From Synergistetes bacterium ADurb.Bin155 (GTDB lineage: Bacteria; Synergistota; Synergistia; Synergistales; Thermovirgaceae), in contig MWDE01000007.1 in NCBI GenBank assembly GCA_002070395.1, positions 1-64,000 of the forward strand: DNA of 64,000 nucleotides, written 5' to 3'. Positions 8,586 through 19,953 of this stretch are shown piece after piece. Positions within the stretch are counted from its first letter, which is position 1. The number at the start of each line of letters is the position of its first letter. The translations under genes were made by a program, and so were the position numbers. Below the pieces are notes generated by a model. That model saw nothing but the letters and a program-made list of their open reading frames with translations. It did no database searches and was not told the origin of the DNA.

Positions 8586-8891
8586 TCTCGTATCCTCCTT
8601 TCGGGATCCAGGTTGTAAGGGGGTCCTCGGCCGGGCCCCCGTCTTTCACCGGGTAACATGGTACCATCACGGCCCCGGCGGCACAACATCCGTTCAGGGC
8701 CCTCAAACCCGGGGGTCGGATCCGAACCGGAGCGCTTGAGCGCCCCACCGGGAGGGCCGCTCCCTCCCCACTTTTCGCCCGATCCAGCGGCATCCTGCAC
8801 CGGCAGCCCCGGCCTTCATCTTCGCCGCACCCGCAACGGGGCGGGTTTCCTGTTATCATGCTAGTGTATCCTGGGATGGAAGGTGAGAAGA
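8586..8891 (+). other. Intergenic region with no gene found
   Basis: About 300 GC-rich bases between the divergent encapsulin operon and the aminotransferase gene. It must hold both promoters. TTGTGC and TACCAT can be aligned 17 bases apart on the minus strand near 8656-8690, but the match is poor. Short frames here lack ribosome-binding sites and family features. Confidence 0.3.
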
Positions 8892-9992
8892 ATGAAGTGG
8901 AAAGAGAAAATGCCGGCGCCCGTGAGGGACAAGACCTTCGCCGAGTACGGTTCTTCCAGGGAGGAGAGGCCTGTCCTGGTGGACTGCGCCCTGGGGACCA
9001 ACCCGCTGGGCTCCCCCCCCTGGGCTAAGGAGATTATGAGATCGGGAGACCTTCCGGATCCGGGCGGCTATCCCGGCGACGACCTCCCCCTGAGGAAGGC
9101 CCTTTCCGACGCCTGGAACGGTGCCTTCTCCCCCGACGAGATCGTCACCGGCACGGGTTCCATCGGCCTGATCATAAGCTTGGCCGGGGCCTTTTGCGCA
9201 CCGGGGGCCGAGGTCCTGGGGATCGCACCCCAGTTCCCCGACGGGCCCATGCACTTCCAGTTCGCCGGGGCCTCCTACCGGTACCTGACGCTCACGCCCC
9301 CGGAGTTCGACCTGGATATTTCCAGCCTCCTGGGAGAGATGTCCGGCGATGAATCCATAGTATATGTCGATCGCCCCCACAACCCCACGGGGCAGGTCCC
9401 TCCCCTGGCCGAGATGGCCCTCCTGGCCGAGGAGTGCCTGAAAATGGGCTCGCTCCTGGTCGTCGACGAGGCCTACGGCGATTTCCTCCCGCCCGGGGAG
9501 TCGGCCCTAAACCTGGTCTCGCCCTCGGTGGTGGTCCTCCGCTCCTTCTCCAAGGGCCGCGGCCTGGCCGGGCTGCGCGCCGGCTACTGCGTGATCCGCG
9601 ACGAGGAGGCCCGGAAGTACGTCCGGAAGGTGGCCCCTCCCTTCTCGGTCGGCTCCCTGGCGATGGAGATGGCCAGGGCGTCCCTCCTCGACGCCGATTA
9701 TGTCGCCCGCTCGAGGGAGACCGTGAGGGAGGTAAAGGCCAGGATCCTCCAGGTCCTGGAGGGGACCAGGGGCATCACCATAGCAAGGACGGGACCGGAA
9801 GTGCCCATCCTCCTTGCGACCTGGGGGGAGGGGTCGCTGGACCTCTACGAGACCCTGATGGAACAGGGCATCAGGACCGAGCCGGGGACCTGCTTCCCGG
9901 GCCTCGGCCCCGAGAGCGTCCGGCTGAGGGTCCCGGCTCTTAAAGAACTGGAGACTTTTGAAAGACTCTGGAAGAGGACCTTTGAAGAATAA
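8892..9992 (+). CDS. Class I/II aminotransferase, HisC-like
   Basis: PLP fold-type I aminotransferase, 366 aa. Motifs: DCALGTNPLGSP near the N-terminus, GTGSIGLI PLP-phosphate contact, DRPHNPTGQV, DEAYGDF and the PLP lysine in LRSFSKGRGLAGLRAGY. This resembles histidinol-phosphate, aromatic or threonine-phosphate (CobD-type) enzymes; the substrate cannot be fixed by eye. An ATG at 8892 with GGAAGGTG 7 bases before it is better than the GTG at 8883. The downstream neighbour is a permease under a Phe/Tyr leader peptide, so an aromatic amino acid substrate is an attractive guess. Confidence 0.75.
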   Translation: MKWKEKMPAPVRDKTFAEYGSSREERPVLVDCALGTNPLGSPPWAKEIMRSGDLPDPGGYPGDDLPLRKALSDAWNGAFSPDEIVTGTGSIGLIISLAGAFCAPGAEVLGIAPQFPDGPMHFQFAGASYRYLTLTPPEFDLDISSLLGEMSGDESIVYVDRPHNPTGQVPPLAEMALLAEECLKMGSLLVVDEAYGDFLPPGESALNLVSPSVVVLRSFSKGRGLAGLRAGYCVIRDEEARKYVRKVAPPFSVGSLAMEMARASLLDADYVARSRETVREVKARILQVLEGTRGITIARTGPEVPILLATWGEGSLDLYETLMEQGIRTEPGTCFPGLGPESVRLRVPALKELETFERLWKRTFEE

Positions 9993-10017: not shown

Positions 10018-10044
10018 TTGACAAGTGCGGGTCGCTGGTATAGA
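10018..10044 (+). promoter_or_regulatory. Promoter of leader/permease operon 1
   Basis: TTGACA (10018-10023), 15 bases, then TGG-TATAGA with the -10 at 10039-10044. The same TTGACA-N15-TATAG(A/G) arrangement, with an extended TGG before the -10, precedes the other two leader modules, which supports it despite the short spacer. Confidence 0.65.
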
Positions 10045-10100
10045 CTCCCATAGAATACTTCGTTTTTTAATAATCGATCGCCTCGGAGGGAGGGTGACCC

Positions 10101-10187
10101 GTGCGGAGAATGAATGACTTTTTCGGCTGCTATTTTTACGGCTATTTCTTTTACTTCGCCTTGGGGTCCCCCTCCTGGCGCGGTTGA
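10101..10187 (+). CDS. Leader peptide 1, Phe/Tyr-rich (28 codons)
   Basis: A 28-codon frame with a strong RBS (GGAGGGAGG) 7 bases before a GTG start. Codons 7-19 contain six Phe and four Tyr (FF at 7-8, then YFYGYFFYF at 11-19), then the constant tail LGSPSWRG and TGA. It has the same length as leaders 2 and 3, and shares the last nine codons with them apart from one position (Ser for Phe at codon 23). An intrinsic terminator starts 28 bases after the stop. Such runs of one kind of codon before a terminator are the hallmark of ribosome-mediated transcription attenuation, here predicted to sense charged tRNA-Phe/tRNA-Tyr. Not likely a functional protein in itself. Confidence 0.82.
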   Translation: MRRMNDFFGCYFYGYFFYFALGSPSWRG

Positions 10188-10252
10188 GCCGTACTCTTCC
10201 GCAACGAACCGGGAAAAAGGGACCCCTTCAAAAGGGGTCCCTTTCTTTTTTT
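10163..10252 (+). promoter_or_regulatory. Attenuator 1: antiterminator segment and intrinsic terminator
   Basis: An 11-bp perfect stem AAAGGGACCCC/GGGGTCCCTTT (10216-10226 and 10234-10244) with a 7-base loop is followed by C and seven to eight T. GGGGTCCC also occurs inside the leader-peptide frame at 10163-10170, an exact copy of the terminator's 3' arm, so it could pair with the 5' arm and prevent termination. A small CGGTT/AACCG stem lies between. The choice between folds would depend on where the leader ribosome stalls. The terminator is certain by eye; the switching is inferred. Confidence 0.78.
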
Positions 10253-10358
10253 GGGGGTGATGTCAAGGGACATCTTGAGAGAAAGACACCGGCGGGCATT
10301 ATAGGGCCGCCCTGCAACGGGGCGGGCAGACAACCAGACACAGGAGGTGTCGAACGAA

Positions 10359-11501
10359 ATGAGCGACCCCGTTGTGAACCGGGGTTTTTTCGGCAAAATG
10401 ATGGGTTCTTCCTTCTACAAGAAGTTCATCCTTCCCGGCCTTATTTCCCAGTCCGTCGTCATCGCCGGGGGTTACGGCACAGGTCGTGAACTCGTCGAGT
10501 ACTTCGGGAATTTCGGCAGCCTCGGCGGCATTCTTGGCATGGTGCTGGTAACCACGGTCCTGTGGGCCATCGTCTACGCCGTGAGTTTTGAGTTCGCCCG
10601 GACCTTCAAGGTTTACGACTACCGGAGCTTTTTCAAGGAACTCATAGGACCCGGCTGGATGCTCTACGAGGTCTGCTACATAATCCTCCTCCTCATCATC
10701 CTCGGCGTCGTCGGAGCCACTTCGGGGAGCGTCTTCAAGCAAGCCTTCGGGCTGCCGCCCCTGGTGGGGGCCGGCCTCTTCCTGGCGGGCGTTGCCACGC
10801 TGACCTTCTTCGGCAGCTACGTCATCGAGGTCGCCCTCTCGTGGTGGTCCTTCGTCCTCTACGCAGTCTTCCTGATCTTCCTCTTCGTGGGGCTCTCCAA
10901 GGTGGGGGGACAGATAAGCGCGAACCTGGCTTCCGGTGATATCCGGGAAGGCTGGGCCCTGGGAGGGTTCAAATACGCCTTCTACAACCTGGCCACTCTT
11001 TCGGCCGTCCTTTTCGCACTCCGCTCAATAGAGACCAGGAAGGAAGCCTTCATATCGGGGGCGATGGCGTCGATCCTGACGATCCTCCCGGGCTTCTTCC
11101 TCTACCTTGTCCTGATGGGCTTCTACCCCGGCATCCTCGAGGTGGAGCTGCCAACTTACACCATCCTGGCCCAGATAGCCCCCTGGCTCCTGCCGATCTT
11201 CCTGGTGGTCCTTTTCGGGACGATGATCGAGACGGCCGCCGGGTTCATCCACTCCGTCAACGAGAGGCTCAACTCGTGGATGGTGGACCGCAAGGGCAAG
11301 GAGCTCTCCAATGCCGGCCGCGGTCTTGTCGGCGGAGCGATGGCCCTCATCGGTCTCGGCGTCGCCTCCTTCGGCCTCATCGGCCTCATCGCCAGGGGCT
11401 ACGGAACCATCAGCTGGGCCTTCTTCCTCTTCCACGGCGTGGCCCTCTTCACGATCGGCCTGTACAAGATGAACAAGAAGAAGCCCGGGAGCGCTGCCTG
11501 A
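10359..11501 (+). CDS. YkvI-type multi-span permease, copy 1 (predicted aromatic amino acid transporter)
   Basis: Integral membrane protein of 380 aa with about ten hydrophobic segments, of the uncharacterised YkvI family (COG3949), a probable LeuT-fold transporter. Conserved N-terminal stretch FILPGLISQSVVIAGGYGTG is the first helix. ATG at 10359 is used; AGGAGGTG lies 10-11 bases upstream, whereas the GTG at 10347 is inside that RBS. It is about 85% identical by eye to the protein at 17391, and 125 bases (10395-10519) are identical in both. Expression is under the Phe/Tyr leader, so transport of an aromatic amino acid or related peptide/keto acid is inferred, not shown. Followed by a terminator. 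Confidence 0.8.
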   Translation: MSDPVVNRGFFGKMMGSSFYKKFILPGLISQSVVIAGGYGTGRELVEYFGNFGSLGGILGMVLVTTVLWAIVYAVSFEFARTFKVYDYRSFFKELIGPGWMLYEVCYIILLLIILGVVGATSGSVFKQAFGLPPLVGAGLFLAGVATLTFFGSYVIEVALSWWSFVLYAVFLIFLFVGLSKVGGQISANLASGDIREGWALGGFKYAFYNLATLSAVLFALRSIETRKEAFISGAMASILTILPGFFLYLVLMGFYPGILEVELPTYTILAQIAPWLLPIFLVVLFGTMIETAAGFIHSVNERLNSWMVDRKGKELSNAGRGLVGGAMALIGLGVASFGLIGLIARGYGTISWAFFLFHGVALFTIGLYKMNKKKPGSAA

Positions 11502-11562
11502 AACCCCGGGATGAGGCAACGGCCCAGGAGTTTATGGGGCTGGAACTAAGAGGAATAGCTTC

Positions 11563-11596
11563 GGAAGCGGCCCGGCGACCTGTCCGGGCCGTTTCC
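11563..11596 (+). terminator. Terminator after permease operon 1
   Basis: CGGCCCGG/CCGGGCCG stem (11568-11575, 11584-11591) then GTTTCCCTTT. A 32-base block including the hairpin is identical to 19981-20012 at the end of operon 3. Confidence 0.7.
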
Positions 11597-11672
11597 CTTT
11601 CTCTGCACCATCGGTGCCGCGTTCTTGCCGTCCCCATCACCCTTGTCCGGCGACACTCGTTCCCGAAAATCC

Positions 11673-11712
11673 TTGACACGGTCGTGTTTTAAGGAGATTG
11701 TACTTAGTACAA
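11673..11712 (+). promoter_or_regulatory. Putative promoter with palindromic operator before the Mrr-type gene
   Basis: TTGACA (11673-11678) is followed 17 bases later by a weak -10 (GATTGT, 11696-11701). Overlapping that -10 is a perfect inverted repeat TTGTAC-TTA-GTACAA (11698-11712), the form expected of an operator. A repressor bound here would block the promoter; which protein binds is unknown. The promoter lies 120 bases upstream of the gene start, and a second start site nearer the gene is possible. Confidence 0.45.
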
Positions 11713-11831
11713 AAGGAAACAATAAGTATGTCAAAGGCAAGGTCTTCTACTACCCTTGCAAATCGTAATTATTATGCACTGTAAGAGATCACCACCTCGT
11801 TGTGTGACTTTGGGGAGGAGGTTCTCAATTT

Positions 11832-12881
11832 ATGCATGTTCGTGATGCCGCCATTAAAGTCCTGCAGGAAGCCGGCCACCCTCTTCATGCCGATGAGATT
11901 GCCGAGATGATCCTGAGCAAGGGCCTATGGAAAACTACGGGAAAAACTCCGGCAGCCACAGTGGGTGCGCGACTCTATTCGGACATCAAGAAGAAGGGAG
12001 CCGCGTCGGTCTTCGTTAAGGTTTCTCCCAATACTTTTGCTCTTCGTGATCCCTCCATGGCAACAACCAACAGTAGGTCAGCACCGACACGCGCCGAGCA
12101 AATACCAAAACCGCCACCTGTTAATTCGGGACTCTCTTTCACCGAAAGTGCTCAGAAGGTACTCGAGGAATTCGGTGGCAAGAAACCTATGCACTACAAG
12201 GAGATCACCGAAAAGGCTCTCGAAAAAGGATGGTTGATAACTAGCGGAAAAACGCCGGAAGCCTCCCTGTTATCCCAGGTTACCACCGAGATAAAGCGCC
12301 ACCAGAAACGCGGTTTACGCCCTCGCTTCGTCCACCACGGCCATGGTTATCTGGGCCTGAGCCAACGGATGGGGCGCGGTCTCGCGTTCCAGATCGAACA
12401 ACACAACCATCAGATCCGGAAGGCCCTGCGCGAGAAGTTGCTGGCCATGAAGCCCGAAGAATTCGAGGAACTGATTTCACGCTTGTTAACTGAGATGGGT
12501 TTCGAGATGGTCGAGGTGACTAAGCTCAGCAGTGACGGCGGCATCGATGTCCGGGGAATCCTGGTGGTCGGAGACGTGGTCCGCATCAAGATGGCCGTCC
12601 AGGCTAAAAAGTGGAAGCTCAAGAACAACGTCCTGGCCCCTGTGATCCAGCAGGTACGTGGCAGCCTAGGAGCGCACGAACAGGGCCTGATCATCACCAC
12701 CAGTGACTTTAGTGCCGGAGCCATCAAGGAAGCGTCTCTGCCCGACAAGACTCCCATAGCCCTGATGAACGGAGAACAACTCGTATTGTTGCTGATGGAA
12801 CATGGCATCGGTGTTCACCGCTCTACGCCGGATCTGTTCGAGATCGATGAGGATGCGTTGGCAACCATGAGAGGACAATAG
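11832..12881 (+). CDS. Type IV restriction endonuclease-like: two HARE-HTH domains plus Mrr nuclease
   Basis: 349 aa. Two related HARE-type winged-helix domains (about residues 1-72 and 98-175; each has the pattern A..VL...G.PLH..EI...L..G.W...GKTP) are joined to an Mrr-like PD-(D/E)XK nuclease domain (about 200-330). Nuclease residues are visible in SSDGGIDVRG and VQAKKWK, the Asp and Gln-x-Lys of Mrr_cat. HARE-HTH domains are thought to read modified DNA, so cleavage of modified foreign DNA is the likely task. Base composition is more A/T-rich than its neighbours and it interrupts a series of amino-acid transport operons, suggesting horizontal gain. RBS GGGGAGGAGG about 10 bases before the ATG. 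Confidence 0.82.
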   Translation: MHVRDAAIKVLQEAGHPLHADEIAEMILSKGLWKTTGKTPAATVGARLYSDIKKKGAASVFVKVSPNTFALRDPSMATTNSRSAPTRAEQIPKPPPVNSGLSFTESAQKVLEEFGGKKPMHYKEITEKALEKGWLITSGKTPEASLLSQVTTEIKRHQKRGLRPRFVHHGHGYLGLSQRMGRGLAFQIEQHNHQIRKALREKLLAMKPEEFEELISRLLTEMGFEMVEVTKLSSDGGIDVRGILVVGDVVRIKMAVQAKKWKLKNNVLAPVIQQVRGSLGAHEQGLIITTSDFSAGAIKEASLPDKTPIALMNGEQLVLLLMEHGIGVHRSTPDLFEIDEDALATMRGQ

Positions 12882-12897
12882 CAACGAAGACTCGGAC

Positions 12898-13050
12898 ATG
12901 CATCCCAAACCTGAAAGGATCGTAATAGAAGCCTTTCGATCAGAGATCAAAACCATTGGCATGATAAAAGAGAATCCTGGTGACAGCCACATTTTTTGGC
13001 TGAAACCTTTTGATTATCTACGGACAGGGAAAATGTCATGGGTAAAGTAA
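12898..13050 (+). CDS. Small open frame downstream of the Mrr-type gene
   Basis: A 50-codon frame (MHPKPERIVIEAFRSEIK at the start, GKMSWVK at the end) with the same A/T-rich composition as the preceding nuclease gene but no convincing RBS. It may be a remnant of DNA acquired along with that gene rather than an expressed protein. No family recognised. The rest of the gap up to the next leader contains the palindrome CCCCTTAAGGGG near 13074 and nothing else identifiable. Confidence 0.25.
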   Translation: MHPKPERIVIEAFRSEIKTIGMIKENPGDSHIFWLKPFDYLRTGKMSWVK

Positions 13051-13152
13051 TTTAGCAAGTCAGGTACGAGGTCCCCTTAAGGGGTGGATATTATCCTTTT
13101 CCTTCCGGAAGGGGGCCTCGTCGCCGTCCGGTCACAAATTGTCCCTTTCCAC

Positions 13153-13179
13153 TTGACAAGGCCGGGACATTGGTATAGG
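13153..13179 (+). promoter_or_regulatory. Promoter of leader/symporter operon 2
   Basis: TTGACA (13153-13158), 15 bases, TTGG-TATAGG (-10 at 13174-13179). Same spacing and extended -10 as modules 1 and 3. Confidence 0.65.
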
Positions 13180-13233
13180 CTTCCCGAAACGTCAAGCCTT
13201 TCATAATGCATATTTTCTGAAGGAGGGAACCCG

Positions 13234-13320
13234 ATGGGCGTAGAGAACGGCTGCTTCGGCCGACTTATGAGCATTATTATTCTCCTTAACGCCTTGGGGT
13301 TCCCCTCCTGGCGCGGTTGA
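13234..13320 (+). CDS. Leader peptide 2, Ile/Leu-rich (28 codons)
   Basis: 28 codons beginning ATG after a strong AAGGAGGG site 6-7 bases upstream. Codons 14-18 are Ile-Ile-Ile-Leu-Leu, with Leu at 11 and 21; the tail LGFPSWRG and TGA match leader 3 exactly and leader 1 except for one codon. Upstream sequence and the first 11 codons are nearly identical to leader 3. The Ile/Leu run before a terminator predicts attenuation in response to charged tRNA-Ile/tRNA-Leu. Confidence 0.82.
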   Translation: MGVENGCFGRLMSIIILLNALGFPSWRG

Positions 13321-13382
13321 ACTGTACCCTTCCGCGAAAAACCGGGATAGAGGGACCCCCAAAAGGGGTCCCTCTTTTTTTT
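13296..13382 (+). promoter_or_regulatory. Attenuator 2: antiterminator segment and intrinsic terminator
   Basis: Perfect 11-bp stem AGAGGGACCCC/GGGGTCCCTCT (13349-13359, 13365-13375), 5-base loop, eight T. Note the covariation with modules 1 and 3 (AGA/TCT in place of AAA/TTT), which preserves pairing. The leader-encoded GGGGTTCCCC (13296-13305) can pair with the 5' arm with one bulged T. Confidence 0.76.
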
Positions 13383-13484
13383 GGAGGTGATGACCAAGGG
13401 AAAGCATGGGGGATGGGACCGGGAATAGAGAGAACCGCCCTCATCAAGAAGCGCCGGAGGGCAGAGAAAAAGGAGGGAGTACTT

Positions 13485-13808
13485 TTGGAGAAACGGGAGT
13501 ATTACAGCAGGGATTACGATTTCGCCGAGATCGAGATGGACCCGAGGTTCCTCCAATGCCGGAAGGAAATGTTCATTTCCTTTTCAACCTGGCTGGCCTT
13601 TACCGCCATTTCCCTTGCGGTAGCCTACGGACTTGGGAAAGGCCCCGTGGAGGAGTACAAGTACATCCTGGGGCTCCCGCAATGGTGGTTCGCCGTAATA
13701 GTCGTCTCCGTGGTCTTTACGTTCATCGTCATTTTCCTTTCCCTTTTCGTTTTCCAGGACATGGAACTGTCCGATGTCGCCGAGACCGGCGAGAAGAAAA
13801 AAGGCTAA
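13485..13808 (+). CDS. Small YhdT-like membrane subunit paired with an SSS symporter
   Basis: 107-aa protein with two hydrophobic helices (about residues 30-50 and 68-92) and charged ends. A TTG at 13485 is preferred because AAGGAGGG lies 9 bases upstream; an ATG at 13413 has no spaced RBS. It sits 31 bases before a sodium:solute symporter gene, the same order as yhdT-panF in enterobacteria, and resembles DUF997/YhdT proteins in size and topology. Function of such partners is not well known; stabilising or modulating the symporter is the usual guess. Confidence 0.65.
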   Translation: MEKREYYSRDYDFAEIEMDPRFLQCRKEMFISFSTWLAFTAISLAVAYGLGKGPVEEYKYILGLPQWWFAVIVVSVVFTFIVIFLSLFVFQDMELSDVAETGEKKKG

Positions 13809-13839
13809 AAACCTTAGTAACAGGAAGAGGTGACATGGC

Positions 13840-15342
13840 ATGGAATGGGAGTTATCTTCAGCAACCCGTACGGTGATCCTCATAACCTTCATCGTTTATT
13901 CGATAGCCCTCCTCGTGGTGGGCTTTTATTCAAAGCGTAGGATGGACAAGACCGCCCTGGACAAGTTCGTGGAGGAGTTCTATACCGGCGGGCGGGGTAT
14001 GGGATCCCTGGTCATCGCCCTCATGATCGCGGCGGGGTTATGCAGCGCCGGTACTTTTCTCGGGGGCCCCGGCCTGGGATACAGCGTGGGTTTGACGTGG
14101 GTCATGGTGCTTTTCGCCCAGAATTTCATGAATTTCTATATCCTCGGCGAGATCGGGAAAAAAGTGGGCATCGTGGCCCGCCGGATAAACGCCCAGTCCT
14201 ACCTTGATCTTTTCGTCTACCGGTACAACCACAACAAGATGGTGGGTCTGATCGGCGTCGCAGGCATCGTGGTCTTCCTGGGCAGTTATGTAGTGGCGCA
14301 GTTCGTCGGCGGCGCCCGCCTCTTCGAGTCGATGACGGGACAACCCTACTGGCTCGGGCTCACTATCTTCGCCCTGGTGGTGCTGTTCTACGCGGCCTTC
14401 GGGGGCATAAGGGGCGTTTCAGCGGCGATCGTGATCCAGGGGCTCGTTATGACCGCTGCGGTGCTGGCGCTCTTCATCGGAGGCCTCCGGTTCCTCCTCC
14501 CCTTGGAATCGTCGGTGAGGAGCATCGCGGAAATGAATCCGGCGCTGGTAACCCCATGGACCTGGGCGCCCGGTTACCAGTTCTCCATGTGGGTGGTTTT
14601 CGGGCTCGTGATGATCGGGCTGCCCCACGGAGCCATGGGGTGCCTCGTCTACAAGGACACGAAGGCCATGCACCGAGCCATCGTGATCGGCACCATCTTC
14701 GTGGTCCTGTGGACCTTCGCCCTGGTCTGGATGGGGCACATGACGAAAGCCGTCTTCCCGAACCTCGCCGTGCCGGATCACGCCATCCCCACCCTGGCCA
14801 TGAGGGTTTTGCCGCCCTGGCTGGCGGGTATCACCCTGGCGGGGGTGGCCGGAGCGATACAGTCGACCATAGGGGCGATGGTCATAGTCATCAGTTCGAC
14901 CCTCGTAAAGGACGCCTACCAGGCCTATATCAACCCCAAGGCTGATCCGGCCAAGCTGAAGAAGGTCACGATCTGGTCCACCGTGGCGATTTGCATCGCG
15001 ATCTTCCTCGGCGCCCTGTTCCCGCCGCCGGCCCTGGAGTGGATAGTGGTCTTCGCCGTCGGGGGGTTGGCCTCGGCCTTCTTCTGGCCGCTGATCCTCG
15101 GCCTTTACTGGATGAAGGCCAACGAGCACGGAGCGGCCGCCGGGATGGCCGGAGGCATGGCGACCTACATCATAGGCGCAGGGAAGTACCTCCCCATCAC
15201 TTTCGGCATGAACGCCATCATGGTCTCGCTGGTAGTCTCCCTGGCACTGACCGTAGGCGTAAGCCTCATGACCCCGAAGACGCCTAAGGGGATCATCATG
15301 ACCTGGTTCGGGAGGGAATACCCGAAAAAAGTACCGGCCTGA
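13840..15342 (+). CDS. Sodium:solute symporter (SSS family, PanF-like)
   Basis: 500-aa membrane protein with 12-13 transmembrane helices and the LeuT-fold SSS signature. Helix 1 region FYTGGRGMGSLVIALMIAAG and the FGGIRGVSAAIVIQG segment are typical of sodium:solute symporters. Closest in look to pantothenate/amino-acid SSS members. It lies in an operon with a YhdT-like subunit and D-aminoacylase under an Ile/Leu leader peptide, so the cargo may be an N-acyl- or D-amino acid, or a branched-chain amino acid, rather than pantothenate. RBS AGGAAGAGGTG before the ATG. Confidence 0.85.
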   Translation: MEWELSSATRTVILITFIVYSIALLVVGFYSKRRMDKTALDKFVEEFYTGGRGMGSLVIALMIAAGLCSAGTFLGGPGLGYSVGLTWVMVLFAQNFMNFYILGEIGKKVGIVARRINAQSYLDLFVYRYNHNKMVGLIGVAGIVVFLGSYVVAQFVGGARLFESMTGQPYWLGLTIFALVVLFYAAFGGIRGVSAAIVIQGLVMTAAVLALFIGGLRFLLPLESSVRSIAEMNPALVTPWTWAPGYQFSMWVVFGLVMIGLPHGAMGCLVYKDTKAMHRAIVIGTIFVVLWTFALVWMGHMTKAVFPNLAVPDHAIPTLAMRVLPPWLAGITLAGVAGAIQSTIGAMVIVISSTLVKDAYQAYINPKADPAKLKKVTIWSTVAICIAIFLGALFPPPALEWIVVFAVGGLASAFFWPLILGLYWMKANEHGAAAGMAGGMATYIIGAGKYLPITFGMNAIMVSLVVSLALTVGVSLMTPKTPKGIIMTWFGREYPKKVPA

Positions 15343-15395
15343 GCCGGACGGTGAAGCCATCGCCCAGGCCATTCAAGCAAGGAGGTTAGTCGTGA

Positions 15396-16997
15396 ATGTA
15401 TGATCTGCTGGTGAAAAATGCAAAGTTGTACGACGGTTGCGGCGGCCCCTGGTTCAAGGGAGGCCTCGCCGTCAAGGACGGCAGGATCGCCTCGATCGGG
15501 AAAATGAAGAACGCCGAGGCCCGCACTGTCATCGATGCCGAGGGAAAGGCCCTTTCGCCGGGCTTCATCGATGCCCACACCCATCTCGATTTCGTCTGCG
15601 CTTCGGTCAACGACACGGCGAGCAAGGTCACCCAGGGGGTTACCACCGAGATCGCGGGCAACTGCGGGCTCTCGCTCATTCCGGTGAGGCCCGAGACCAT
15701 CGAGGAGCTCAAGCGGTACCTGGCCCCCTTCATCCCCCAGGACGTGAACCTTTCCTGGAAGTGGAGGTCCCTGGGGGACTGGTTCGACTGCGTCGATGAA
15801 AGGGGCAACTCGACCAACGTGGCCTCCCTGGTCGGACACGGGACCCTCCGGATCTACGCCATGGGTTTCGCCGACAGGAAGCCCAGCGGGCAAGAGATGG
15901 CCGAGATGAAGAGGGCCCTGGCCCAGACCATGGAAGAGGGCGCCCTGGGGCTTTCGACGGGGTTGATCTACCCGCCCGGGTGTTACTCAGATACGGATGA
16001 ACTCAGTGAACTTTGCGAGGTCGTAGCGGAACACGGCGGCCTTTACGTGACCCACATGCGCAACGAGGGCCCTGAACTGCTGCAGTCCGTCGAGGAGGCC
16101 CTGGAGATCGGGAGGAGAAGCGGCTGCCCGGTGCATATTTCCCATCACAAGTCGTCGGGTAGGCAGAATTACGGGCTGGTGTCACGATCGCTGCAGATGA
16201 TGGAGGACGCCCGGGCGGAGGGGATTGACGTCACTTGCGATGTCTACCCCTACACGGCGGGGTCCACCCTCATAAGCAGCCTGCTCCCCAAGTGGGTCCA
16301 CGAGGGCGGCGTCGGGCGCATGCTTGAGAGGCTGAAGGACCCCGCGTCCAGGCGGAGGATCGCCGACGAACTGGACCGGGTCATCCCGGGCTGGGAAAAC
16401 CTGGCGAAGGGTTGCGGCTGGGAGAACATCCTCATCTGTTCCTGCGAGAAGGAACCATCCTACGAAGGGAAGACCGTCACGGAGATCGCCGACGGGAGAG
16501 GAACCTCACCGGAGGAGGCACTCTTCGACGTGATCCTGGAGACCGAGGGTAAGGCCACCATCGCGCTCTTCATGATGGATGAGAAGGATTGCTCGACGGT
16601 CCTCGCCCACCCGCTCTCCATGGTGGGCTCCGACGGGTTCGCCAGTTCTTTCAGCGGGGTCCTTTCCAAGGGCAAGCCCCACCCCCGTTCCTTTGGAACC
16701 TTCCCCCGCGTCCTGGGCAAGTACGTCAGGGAAGAGGGTCTCATGTCCCTGGAAAGAGCCATCTGGAAAATGACGGGCTTCGCGGCCCAGCGGTTCGGCC
16801 TTAAGGACCGGGGTTTCCTGAGGGAAGGGATGGCCGCCGACCTGGTCGTTTTCGATCCCCTCGAGATCATCGACAACGCGACCTACAAAGAGCCCCGTCA
16901 ACAGGCCGAGGGTATCGATTACGTGGTCCTGGGCGGCGAGGTCGTCGTGGATCACAAGGTGTATAACGGGAAAACCCTTGGGAGATCCCTGAGGTGA
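15396..16997 (+). CDS. D-aminoacylase (N-acyl-D-amino-acid deacylase)
   Basis: Amidohydrolase-superfamily enzyme of 533 aa releasing D-amino acids from N-acyl-D-amino acids. Metal and catalytic residues are visible: DAHTHLDF (HxH), the Cys ligand in GNCGLS, His in THMRNEG and HISHHKSSG, and Asp in VGSDGF. C-terminal beta domain ends GMAADLVVFDP. RBS AAGGAGG. Third gene of the Ile/Leu-leader operon, after the SSS symporter. Together they suggest import of an acylated D-amino acid, deacylation and entry to fermentation. Whether it prefers hydrophobic D-amino acids, as the leader codons would suggest, cannot be judged from sequence. Confidence 0.88.
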   Translation: MYDLLVKNAKLYDGCGGPWFKGGLAVKDGRIASIGKMKNAEARTVIDAEGKALSPGFIDAHTHLDFVCASVNDTASKVTQGVTTEIAGNCGLSLIPVRPETIEELKRYLAPFIPQDVNLSWKWRSLGDWFDCVDERGNSTNVASLVGHGTLRIYAMGFADRKPSGQEMAEMKRALAQTMEEGALGLSTGLIYPPGCYSDTDELSELCEVVAEHGGLYVTHMRNEGPELLQSVEEALEIGRRSGCPVHISHHKSSGRQNYGLVSRSLQMMEDARAEGIDVTCDVYPYTAGSTLISSLLPKWVHEGGVGRMLERLKDPASRRRIADELDRVIPGWENLAKGCGWENILICSCEKEPSYEGKTVTEIADGRGTSPEEALFDVILETEGKATIALFMMDEKDCSTVLAHPLSMVGSDGFASSFSGVLSKGKPHPRSFGTFPRVLGKYVREEGLMSLERAIWKMTGFAAQRFGLKDRGFLREGMAADLVVFDPLEIIDNATYKEPRQQAEGIDYVVLGGEVVVDHKVYNGKTLGRSLR

Positions 16998-17056
16998 CCC
17001 GGTACCGCTTTTTCCGCCGACTTCCCTTGCCCGTCGCATGAGTTGGATTAGAGCTA

Positions 17057-17083
17057 TTGACAAGGGAACGCCGCTGGTATAGA
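17057..17083 (+). promoter_or_regulatory. Promoter of leader/permease operon 3
   Basis: TTGACA (17057-17062), 15 bases, CTGG-TATAGA (-10 at 17078-17083). Same layout as modules 1 and 2. Confidence 0.65.
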
Positions 17084-17137
17084 GTGCGCTGAAGGCAACA
17101 CATTTCATAATGCATATTTTCTAAAGGAGGGAACCCG

Positions 17138-17224
17138 GTGGGTGTAGAGAACGGCTCCTTCGGCCGACTTGTAAACATTATTATTCTCCTTTCCGCCTTG
17201 GGGTTCCCCTCCTGGCGCGGTTGA
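17138..17224 (+). CDS. Leader peptide 3, Ile/Leu-rich (28 codons)
   Basis: 28 codons from a GTG 7 bases after AAAGGAGGG. Codons 11-18 read L-V-N-I-I-I-L-L, followed by LGFPSWRG and TGA at positions 21-29. It differs from leader 2 only at codons 1, 2, 7, 12, 13 and 19, and only two of these changes are silent or conservative starts, while the Ile/Leu run and tail are kept. Predicted to sense charged tRNA-Ile/Leu. Confidence 0.82.
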   Translation: MGVENGSFGRLVNIIILLSALGFPSWRG

Positions 17225-17288
17225 GCCGTACTCTTCCGCAACGAACCGGGATAAAGGGACCCCTTCAAAAGGGGTCCCTTTCTTTTTT
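17200..17288 (+). promoter_or_regulatory. Attenuator 3: antiterminator segment and intrinsic terminator
   Basis: Perfect 11-bp stem AAAGGGACCCC/GGGGTCCCTTT (17253-17263, 17271-17281), 7-base loop, C then six T. Leader-encoded GGGGTTCCCC at 17200-17209 is the alternative partner of the 5' arm. The segment from the leader stop to the terminator is nearly identical to module 1. Confidence 0.78.
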
Positions 17289-17390
17289 CCAAAGGGGAGG
17301 TGACGCCGCGGGAAACGAAAAGAGTCGGGGAGTCGGAAAGCACCCGCCCCAAGAAACGGGAAAAGCAAGACACAGGAGGTGTCGAGTGTA

Positions 17391-18533
17391 ATGAGAGGTC
17401 AAGAAAGTGAACGTGGGTTTTTCAGTAAAATGATGGGTTCTTCCTTCTACAAGAAGTTCATCCTTCCCGGCCTTATTTCCCAGTCCGTCGTCATCGCCGG
17501 GGGTTACGGCACAGGTCGTGAACTCGTCGAGTACTTCGGGAATTTCGGCAGTCTCGGCGGGATCCTCGGCATGGCGCTGGTGACTACGACCCTGTGGGCC
17601 GTCGTCTACGCCGCCAGTTACGAATTCGCCAGGACCTTCAAGGTATACGACTACCGGGGTTTCTTCAAGGAACTCCTCGGGCCCGGCTGGATGCTCTATG
17701 AAGTGTGTTACCTCGTGCTCCTCCTTATTGTTCTCGGCGTCGTCGGGGCCGCCTCGGGGAGCATCTTCAAGCAAGCCTTCGGGCTGCCGCCACTGGTGGG
17801 GGCCGGTCTCTTCCTGGCGGGCGTCGTCACGCTGACCTTCTTCGGCAGCTACGTCATCGAGGTCGCCCTGTCGTGGTGGTCCTTCGTCCTCTACGCGGTC
17901 TTCCTGGTCTTCCTCTTTGTGGGGCTCTCCAAGGTAGGCGGCCAGATAAGCGCGAACCTGGTTTCCGGGGACATCCGGGAAGGCTGGGCCCTGGGAGGTT
18001 TCAAATATGCCTTTTATAACCTGGGCACCCTCCCGGCCGTACTTTTCGCACTAAATTACATCGAGACCAGGAGAGAGGCCATCATTTCGGGGATATTGAC
18101 AGCCATCCTCACCATCCTTCCGGGTTTCTTCCTCTACCTTGTCCTGATGGGCTTCTACCCCGGCATCCTCGAGGCGGAGCTGCCCGCCTACACCATCCTT
18201 TCACAGATCGCCCCCTGGCTCCTGCCGATCTTCCTGGTGGTCCTTTTCGGGACGATGATCGAGACGGCCGTCGGCTTCATTCACGCCGTCAACGAACGGG
18301 TCAACTCCTGGATGGTGGACCACAGGAACACGGAACTGACCAAGGCCAACCGCGGCCTTCTCGGGGGCGCCATGGGCCTTATCGGTCTCGGCGTGGCCTC
18401 CTTCGGCCTCATCGGCCTCATAGCCAAGGGTTACGGGACCATCAGCTGGGGCTTTTTCCTGCTCCACGGCGTGGCTCTCTTCACGATAGGTCTGTACAAG
18501 ATGAACAAAAAGGGCGGGAAGGCACCCGCCTGA
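17391..18533 (+). CDS. YkvI-type multi-span permease, copy 2 (predicted branched-chain substrate)
   Basis: 380-aa paralogue of the permease at 10359, about ten transmembrane segments, identical length. ATG at 17391 follows AGGAGGTG by 10-11 bases. Differences from copy 1 are mainly in loops and the last third; 125 bases near the 5' end are base-for-base identical. It is controlled by an Ile/Leu leader and followed after 28 bases by an isoleucine-2-epimerase-like gene, so a branched-chain amino acid (L or D) is the likely cargo. The pair of paralogues under two different leaders offers a natural test of leader/cargo agreement. Confidence 0.8.
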   Translation: MRGQESERGFFSKMMGSSFYKKFILPGLISQSVVIAGGYGTGRELVEYFGNFGSLGGILGMALVTTTLWAVVYAASYEFARTFKVYDYRGFFKELLGPGWMLYEVCYLVLLLIVLGVVGAASGSIFKQAFGLPPLVGAGLFLAGVVTLTFFGSYVIEVALSWWSFVLYAVFLVFLFVGLSKVGGQISANLVSGDIREGWALGGFKYAFYNLGTLPAVLFALNYIETRREAIISGILTAILTILPGFFLYLVLMGFYPGILEAELPAYTILSQIAPWLLPIFLVVLFGTMIETAVGFIHAVNERVNSWMVDHRNTELTKANRGLLGGAMGLIGLGVASFGLIGLIAKGYGTISWGFFLLHGVALFTIGLYKMNKKGGKAPA

Positions 18534-18561: not shown

Positions 18562-19953
18562 ATGGATTGGAGATCTCTGGCCGGGTTGACCGGCAAGAAC
18601 ATCGAAAAAAGCTGCGCCGTCATTGAGGGTGAAGAGAAAGTGATACCCGGGGCCGTGTCGATTAAGTACTTCCCCATGGCCATCGAGAAGGCCCAGGGCT
18701 CCCTCGTCTGGGACGCCGACGGGAACAGGTATATCGACTTCCTGACCAGTGCCGCCGCCTACAACGCGGGCCACTGCCACCCGGCGGTGGTCGAGGCCGT
18801 CAAGGAGCAAGTGGAACGTCTCCAGAATTACACGATGGTCTATTTCTACAACGACCGGCCGGTCAGGCTGGCCGAACTCCTGATCACTACGACCCCAGGG
18901 GACGCACCCAAAAAGGCCGTTTTCGGCTTCTCCGGGTCCGACGGCGTCGACGCCGCCATCAGGGCCGGACGCTCTTTCACGGGACGGAGAAAGATCCTCA
19001 GCTTCAAGGGATCCTACCACGGCATGACCACGGCCGCTCTTTCGGTGACGGGAATCGTCAGCGACGAGACCAAAAAGGACGTCTGCCTTGACCCCCACGT
19101 GATCTTCGCCGAGTATCCCGATCCCTACCGCAATTCCTGGGGGATCGACGGCTACGCCGACCCCGCCGCCCTTTCGGGCAAGGCCATGGAGTCCATCGCG
19201 GCACTCCTGGAAAGGCATCGCGGCGATGTGGCGGCCGTCCTGATCGAACCCGCCCAGGGTGACGGGGGGATGATCTTCCCCCCGGGGGAATTCATGACCC
19301 GGCTCAGGGGGGTCACGGAAAGGGAAGGGATCGTGCTCATCGATGAAGAGGTCCAGACCGGAATGGGCCGCAGCGGACGATGGTGGGCCATCGAACACTT
19401 CGGCGTGGTCCCCGACCTCATCGTCACCGCCAAGTCGCTGGGCGGCGGGCTCCCCATTTCGGCCGTCGTGGGCAGAGCCGAGATCCTCGACGCTGTCCCC
19501 GCGCCGCTGTTCGCCTACACCCACGCAGGCCACGCCGTCAGTTGCGCTTCGGCGGAGGCCATGATCAAGGTCGTGCGTGACGAAGGACTCGCCGCCGCGG
19601 CGGTGGAAAAGGGACAGGTCATCGCCGACTGGTTCAGGTCAAGGGCCGGGCGGTACCCCTTCATCGGGGACATTCGGCAGAGAGGGCTGCTTATGGGTGT
19701 CGAGGTGGTATCGGACAGGGAAAAGAGAACGCCCGACAAGGCCATGGCAATGAAGATATCCTGGGCCGCCTGGGAGAGGGGCCTCATAATGATCACCTTC
19801 GGGAAGGACGGCAACGTGCTGCGGCTGGCCCCGCCGCTCAACATACCCGACGAACTCCTCCAGGAAGCCCTGGGGATAATGGATGCCTCCCTCGAGGACG
19901 CGGCGTCAGGGAAAGTGCCCGCAGCCATCCTGCCGCTCCTCAAGGGCTGGTAG
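18562..19953 (+). CDS. Class III aminotransferase family, isoleucine 2-epimerase-like
   Basis: 463-aa PLP enzyme of the class III (omega/GABA aminotransferase) fold. Visible: SGSDGVDAAI (PLP phosphate site), SFKGSYHG, IEPAQGDGGM, DEEVQTGMGRSG and the PLP lysine in TAKSLGGGLPISAV. Several stretches, IGDIRQRGLLMGVE and the end SGKVPAAILPLLKGW, recall lactobacillar isoleucine 2-epimerase (a racemase of branched-chain amino acids) more than GABA aminotransferase, from memory of that sequence. Its place in an Ile/Leu-controlled operon with a permease agrees. GABA or other omega-transamination remains possible. RBS GGGGAGG 10 bases before the ATG. Confidence 0.72.
   Translation: MDWRSLAGLTGKNIEKSCAVIEGEEKVIPGAVSIKYFPMAIEKAQGSLVWDADGNRYIDFLTSAAAYNAGHCHPAVVEAVKEQVERLQNYTMVYFYNDRPVRLAELLITTTPGDAPKKAVFGFSGSDGVDAAIRAGRSFTGRRKILSFKGSYHGMTTAALSVTGIVSDETKKDVCLDPHVIFAEYPDPYRNSWGIDGYADPAALSGKAMESIAALLERHRGDVAAVLIEPAQGDGGMIFPPGEFMTRLRGVTEREGIVLIDEEVQTGMGRSGRWWAIEHFGVVPDLIVTAKSLGGGLPISAVVGRAEILDAVPAPLFAYTHAGHAVSCASAEAMIKVVRDEGLAAAAVEKGQVIADWFRSRAGRYPFIGDIRQRGLLMGVEVVSDREKRTPDKAMAMKISWAAWERGLIMITFGKDGNVLRLAPPLNIPDELLQEALGIMDASLEDAASGKVPAAILPLLKGW

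Follow-up and report, generated by a model that had tools for sequence, protein, structure and literature searches.

The window, by which we mean the whole stretch of 64,000 nucleotides that was analysed, contains three operons headed by closely similar leader modules, and raises the question of what these modules sense and why they share a constant tail. The three modules claimed by the initial annotation were located where it had placed them, and the promoter, the ribosome-binding site (RBS), the reading frame of 28 codons and the U-tailed terminator were confirmed for each. The tail CCCTCCTGGCGCGGTTGA has exact matches at 10170, 13303 and 17207 on the + strand and at no other site in the window. 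The leader peptides of copies 1, 2 and 3 (VRRMNDFFGCYFYGYFFYFALGSPSWRG, MGVENGCFGRLMSIIILLNALGFPSWRG and VGVENGSFGRLVNIIILLSALGFPSWRG, each followed by a stop codon) share the end LG(F/S)PSWRG-stop, and their start codons (GTG, ATG and GTG, respectively) were assigned from the position of the RBS only. A strong Shine-Dalgarno sequence lies upstream of every leader frame (3/3 copies), promoters of the form TTGACA-N15-TATAG(A/G) begin at 10018, 13153 and 17057, and about 28-31 nt past the leader stop lies a GC-rich stem (11-13 bp) followed by a T-run. The elements of the modules are the following:

10018..10044, + strand: copy 1 promoter, -35 TTGACA, 15-nt spacer, -10 TATAGA (from sequence; same spacing in relatives)
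10101..10187, + strand: copy 1 leader ORF, 28 codons, with Phe/Tyr sensor codons 7-19
10163..10183, + strand: copy 1 antiterminator 5' strands, within the ORF tail: P1 GGGGTCCC, P2 TCCTGG, P3 GCGG (from folding and swap tests)
10199..10226, + strand: copy 1 antiterminator 3' strands: P3 CCGC, P2 CCGGGA, P1 GGGACCCC, which doubles as the 5' arm of the terminator (from folding)
10216..10251, + strand: copy 1 intrinsic terminator, stem AAAGGGACCCCTT/AAGGGGTCCCTTT and T-run (from sequence)
13153..13179, + strand: copy 2 promoter, TTGACA-N15-TATAGG (from sequence)
13234..13320, + strand: copy 2 leader ORF, 28 codons, with Ile/Leu sensor codons 14-18 (ATT ATT ATT CTC CTT)
13349..13383, + strand: copy 2 terminator and T-run
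17057..17083, + strand: copy 3 promoter, TTGACA-N15-TATAGA (from sequence)
17138..17224, + strand: copy 3 leader ORF, 28 codons, with Ile/Leu sensor codons 14-18 (ATT ATT ATT CTC CTT)
17253..17288, + strand: copy 3 terminator and T-run

In copy 1, Phe and Tyr account for 10 of codons 7-19, versus 8.3% in the genes of the window. This cluster is not a matter of chance, since its binomial probability against window gene composition is about 3e-9, before correction for choosing the stretch. The stretch ATTATTATT of copies 2 and 3 uses the Ile codon ATT, which is rare here (5.3 per 1000 codons). Two features by which attenuators are recognised are therefore present in these modules: a cluster of codons for the relevant amino acid in a short, RBS-bearing leader ORF, and an intrinsic terminator between the leader and the first gene. 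An imperfect inverted repeat, ACGAGGTCCCCTT ... AAGGGGGCCTCGT, occupies positions 13067-13125 of the window, immediately 5' of the copy 2 promoter.

The genes around the modules are arranged as follows:

8883..9992, + strand: class I/II aminotransferase (CobD/HisC-like), which precedes copy 1 and marks the ancestral locus
10347..11501, + strand: T1, the target of copy 1, a 384-aa polytopic membrane protein, probably a carrier
13485..13808, + strand: DUF997 (YhdT-like) protein, first gene of the copy 2 operon
13840..15342, + strand: SSS symporter of the copy 2 operon, with panF as best curated match
15396..16997, + strand: Amidohydro_3 protein of the copy 2 operon, read as of the N-acyl-D-amino-acid deacylase type
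17379..18533, + strand: T3, the target of copy 3, a 384-aa membrane protein 86% identical to T1
18562..19953, + strand: class-III PLP enzyme

The downstream genes had been taken for amino-acid-type transporters. An amino-acid type was not borne out for the SSS-family carrier of copy 2, which among curated families best matches panF, the symporter for sodium and pantothenate (382 bits, cut-off 328), and the 384-aa membrane proteins of copies 1 and 3 have no match in Pfam, NCBIfam or PDB. T1 and T3 contain at least 8 hydrophobic segments, and structure prediction of this carrier reached a pLDDT of 37. The nearest solved relative of the class-III PLP enzyme encoded after T3 is 9wrf (572 bits), an amino-acid racemase of broad specificity, and T1 and T3 might belong to a new family of carriers associated with such a racemase. 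No close homologue of the amidohydrolase was found except in genome G002. The window also encodes an Mrr-type restriction endonuclease with HARE-HTH domains (11832-12881), located after the copy 1 operon and ahead of copy 2.

What could such modules do? We consider it very probable that each is a ribosome-mediated transcription attenuator, with a Phe/Tyr sensor in copy 1, Ile/Leu sensors in copies 2 and 3, and a constant RNA switch extending from the tail to the terminator. RNA polymerase would begin at the TTGACA/TATAG promoter and the leader would be translated by a ribosome which, when the cognate tRNA is charged, would reach the stop codon and cover the last eight codons, so that the terminator hairpin forms and transcription stops. 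When the cognate tRNA is scarce, the ribosome would stall in the sensor, at codons 11-19 in copy 1 or 14-18 in copies 2 and 3, and leave the tail RNA free; P3 and P2 would then pair with the spacer and P1 with the terminator's 5' arm, allowing read-through. Specificity would be set by the sensor codons, with the RNA from tail to terminator as a constant switch, and the same switch with other sensors would be used throughout the Synergistota. The frames, the terminators, the mutually exclusive pairing with its co-adaptation, the match between sensors and genes, and the distribution are established at the level of sequence, and from them we infer stalling, read-through and the physiological response of the attenuators.

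Folding calculations agree with this arrangement. In nearly all members folded, of the PSWRG class and of other classes, the last codons of the ORF capture most of the terminator's 5' arm as long as the 3' arm has yet to be transcribed; the exceptions to the three-helix antiterminator are the leaders of G032, which has no cognate codons, and G018. When the leader frame is masked together with the 9 nt that directly follow its stop, the terminator forms. A third recognised feature of attenuators, an antiterminator that excludes the terminator and is itself covered once a ribosome reaches the stop codon, was thus found by computation. At equilibrium the terminator is more stable than the antiterminator, and antitermination must therefore be kinetic. 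The cognate codons end at least 3 codons before the pairing strand in 60/64 leaders, a spacing that fits because the footprint of a ribosome stalled at these codons must not extend into that strand.

The constant tail LGxPSWRG had been described in terms of its peptide. Its conservation was borne out, but its nucleotides make up the 5' strand of the predicted three-helix antiterminator, and the tail is best explained as pairing RNA rather than as a peptide. This was examined by swap tests, in which each tail with its own downstream strand was compared with tails exchanged between loci. Over 22 loci, own pairs reached -16.5 versus -10.6 kcal/mol for swapped pairs (z -7.9, 0/20,000), and over 61 model-found loci -15.8 versus -9.1 (z -15). 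The difference persisted within ilv loci alone (z -7.4) and within met loci (P 0.003); it was weak within leuA alone (P 0.05) and metY alone (P 0.18), and marginal within the near-identical PSWRG subfamily (P 0.05). A count of pairs in that subfamily revealed no two-sided changes, the sequences hardly varying; since they are too alike for covariation, this count is uninformative, and swap tests were used. In the subfamily, the pairing is supported instead by single compensations, GCAGGT/ACCTGC in G008 and CTCCTG/CAGGAG in G009.

The most serious alternative is that regulation resides in the C-terminal peptide itself, GxPSWRG or GxPPG, acting as a motif for nascent-chain arrest or polyproline pausing. 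The tail is conserved, PPG is known to be translated slowly, and arrest peptides are located close to the stop codon. Against this, the co-adaptation of the tail with its downstream strand in the swap tests is a property of the RNA, and several members have changed the peptide. In G030/G031, TGG has become TAG, placing the stop three codons earlier, and the now untranslated CGCGG...CCGC is kept; in G008, GGT has become AGG (Gly28 to Arg) with a matching change in the partner (ACCTGC); and G007 has R replaced by C in its tail. Most other classes have the tail RNA GGGTYCCC-TCCYGG, a near-identical RNA (GGGTYCCCTCCYGG) that is one C shorter and is read as GxPPG instead of GxPSW, such that nearly the same RNA encodes PSW or PPG through a difference of 1 nt in length, and PP is absent from many members. 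We accordingly regard a regulatory peptide as improbable, although an additional peptide effect, such as pausing at PPG, may exist. The leaders were also compared with nascent-chain arrest peptides as a class and set apart from them, conservation of the C-terminal residues independent of the RNA not being observed.

The attenuator reading also implies that sensor codons should go with downstream genes. The proposal of a modular family with exchanged sensor codons was supported by further copies, by a covariance model and by a strong correlation between sensor codons and downstream gene. When each gene group was counted once per genus (44 genus-level cases), the cognate fraction of the sensor was 0.47, versus 0.20 +/- 0.03 with shuffled labels (0/20,000). 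Inspection of 61 hits of model R2 (see below) revealed leaders with sensors that match the next gene. Ile/Leu/Val sensors precede ilvN-ilvC and Leu sensors precede leuA or leuC; Met runs (e.g. SMMMC) are found before metY, metQ and metN (L241, L257, L258, L259, L262, L267, L272, L277), Thr sensors before homoserine dehydrogenase (hom) and aspartokinase, Phe/Tyr sensors before paaK-like CoA ligases, and Phe/Tyr/Trp sensors before the carrier of the window.

Several leaders have less usual neighbours. In six genomes of the family, an AddB-like PD-(D/E)XK nuclease gene follows an Ile/Leu/Val leader at a distance of about 300-400 nt (L152:342-499, in the own genome, C8; L264, L091, L171, L082 and L083), which would represent a DNA-repair operon behind a branched-chain attenuator. 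In genus g12, orphan attenuators (L087:2077, L088:1747 and L157) have a leader ending in LVLVLIIISGPPSGGFGT-stop; the gene that comes next is convergent, and no target is evident on the strand of the attenuator. Ile/Leu/Val leaders also occur in L223 and L224, where the next large + strand frame encodes a PAS-HD domain protein (checked in L223).

Further copies were found in related genomes, and a covariance model recovers them. Within the family to which the window belongs, the strict tail occurs at seven more sites in five genomes, every leader being exactly 28 codons long, and covariance model R1, searched over 188 Synergistota genomes, adds the diverged pair G030/G031 from another family; R1 matches below about 25 bits were mostly plain terminators and were left out of the counts. 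Among 84,980 bacterial and archaeal species, the strict pattern retrieved 28 stretches, of which the five from Synergistota are real and the remainder is about the number that chance predicts from the information in the pattern. The strict PSWRG form is thus confined to two Synergistota families. For model R2, ten members contributed their tail and terminator and nothing else, sensor codons and genes being left out; this model matched (E 1e-3 or better, Infernal E-values being rough after a short calibration) in 123/188 Synergistota genomes and 54/63 genera, with up to 14 matches per genome, and in 0/22 whole genomes of other phyla. The own genome has at least 5 members, namely the three window copies, one before leuA and one before the AddB-like gene. 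In other families, leaders with sensors such as WFYYF, WFIYF and WYSYFF likewise stand before orthologues of the window's carrier, and for several such orthologues no leader was seen. Spread by duplication in this lineage, as initially suggested, thus describes the three window copies and the strict PSWRG tail, a local expansion, but not the class, which is phylum-wide.

These data bear on the two remaining alternatives. Leaders that are recent duplicates of a promoter-terminator cassette devoid of regulatory meaning, with tail identity reflecting recency, would fit the near-identical tails of the window, which are partly homogenised within genomes; such a history is very unlikely in view of the sensor-gene match over 44 genus-level cases, the pairing kept between diverged loci and the occurrence in 54 of 63 genera. 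Control of the terminator by a riboswitch or T-box-like element instead of leader translation is hardly credible either, for although T-boxes and SAM riboswitches do occur in Synergistota and T-boxes are present elsewhere in this genome, these loci gave no Rfam match above cut-off, including T-box RF00230, and none above the gathering score for the Rfam leader families (e.g. Leu, His, Phe, Thr and Trp leader), and the RBS and codon-run composition make sense only with translation.

Genomes with a single copy have the order aminotransferase, leader, 384-aa membrane protein and class III PLP enzyme, with mixed sensors (NYGIILY, FIYEITRYY, FIYGIIRYY or FIYGIILY). The window and G002 have two duplicate leader-carrier units, and the DUF997/SSS-symporter/amidohydrolase operon, which carries its own leader copy, lies between the duplicates. 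The duplicates divide the sensors, copy 1 having Phe/Tyr only and copy 3 Ile/Leu only. By this comparison, the two carriers, which share 86% identity, go back to a single ancestral locus whose mixed Ile/Tyr sensor has since been split, and copies 1 and 3 are a case of sensor subfunctionalisation at the sequence level; the substrates of the carriers may have been divided likewise after duplication. Common descent of all members is likely, rather than convergence on the same geometry. On balance, we lean towards a single ancestral cassette that underwent phylum-wide duplication and capture and reached at least six specificities (Ile/Leu/Val, Leu, Met, Thr, Phe/Tyr and Trp) by sensor changes alone, including methionine and the Ile/Tyr subfunctionalisation of the window.

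A sequence model recognises the switch across most genera in the phylum, and the sensor can be read from the codons, so that the evolution of regulatory specificity becomes directly testable through sensor swaps, duplication and subfunctionalisation. Sensor codons may also predict the amino acid tied to genes of unassigned function, such as the window's carrier, and methionine joins the amino acids apparently sensed by leader-peptide attenuation. The mechanism class is old, and for a phylum-wide, sensor-swapped class with Met members we found neither an Rfam model nor a description; a literature search for leader attenuators of Synergistota or methionine-codon leaders found none, which is weak evidence as subscription journals were mostly uncovered.

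Ribosome-mediated transcription attenuation is a textbook mechanism, classically represented by leader peptides of the trp, his, phe, thr, ilv and leu operons of Proteobacteria. Attenuators are usually described per operon, with little sequence common between amino acids. Leader-peptide attenuators are documented in Actinobacteria for trp, ilvB and leuS (PMC1262725), and the same 2005 comparative study names S-box riboswitches as the RNA-level control of methionine, with no Met attenuator among those listed (PMC1262725). The His leader attenuators of Firmicutes likewise lie outside Proteobacteria and Actinobacteria, with sensing systems that switch between paralogues, but they concern a single amino acid and, in the parts of these reports consulted, no tail shared across amino acids is described (PMC2965389, PMC9413887). 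The ilvB-II motif of Corynebacterium is also an RNA motif, made up largely of a uORF rich in Ile/Leu/Val and accompanied by a terminator, but it is mostly 15-17 codons long and restricted to ilv, and the sections consulted describe no exchange of sensors (PMC10272879). Like classical attenuators, the modules reported here combine runs of cognate codons in a leader ORF, an exclusive choice between antiterminator and terminator, and a predicted control by ribosome position. Unlike them, they have the 5' strand of the antiterminator within the last codons of the ORF, one recurring RNA element is common to loci that would sense different amino acids, and their targets include Met genes, a carrier and catabolic genes.
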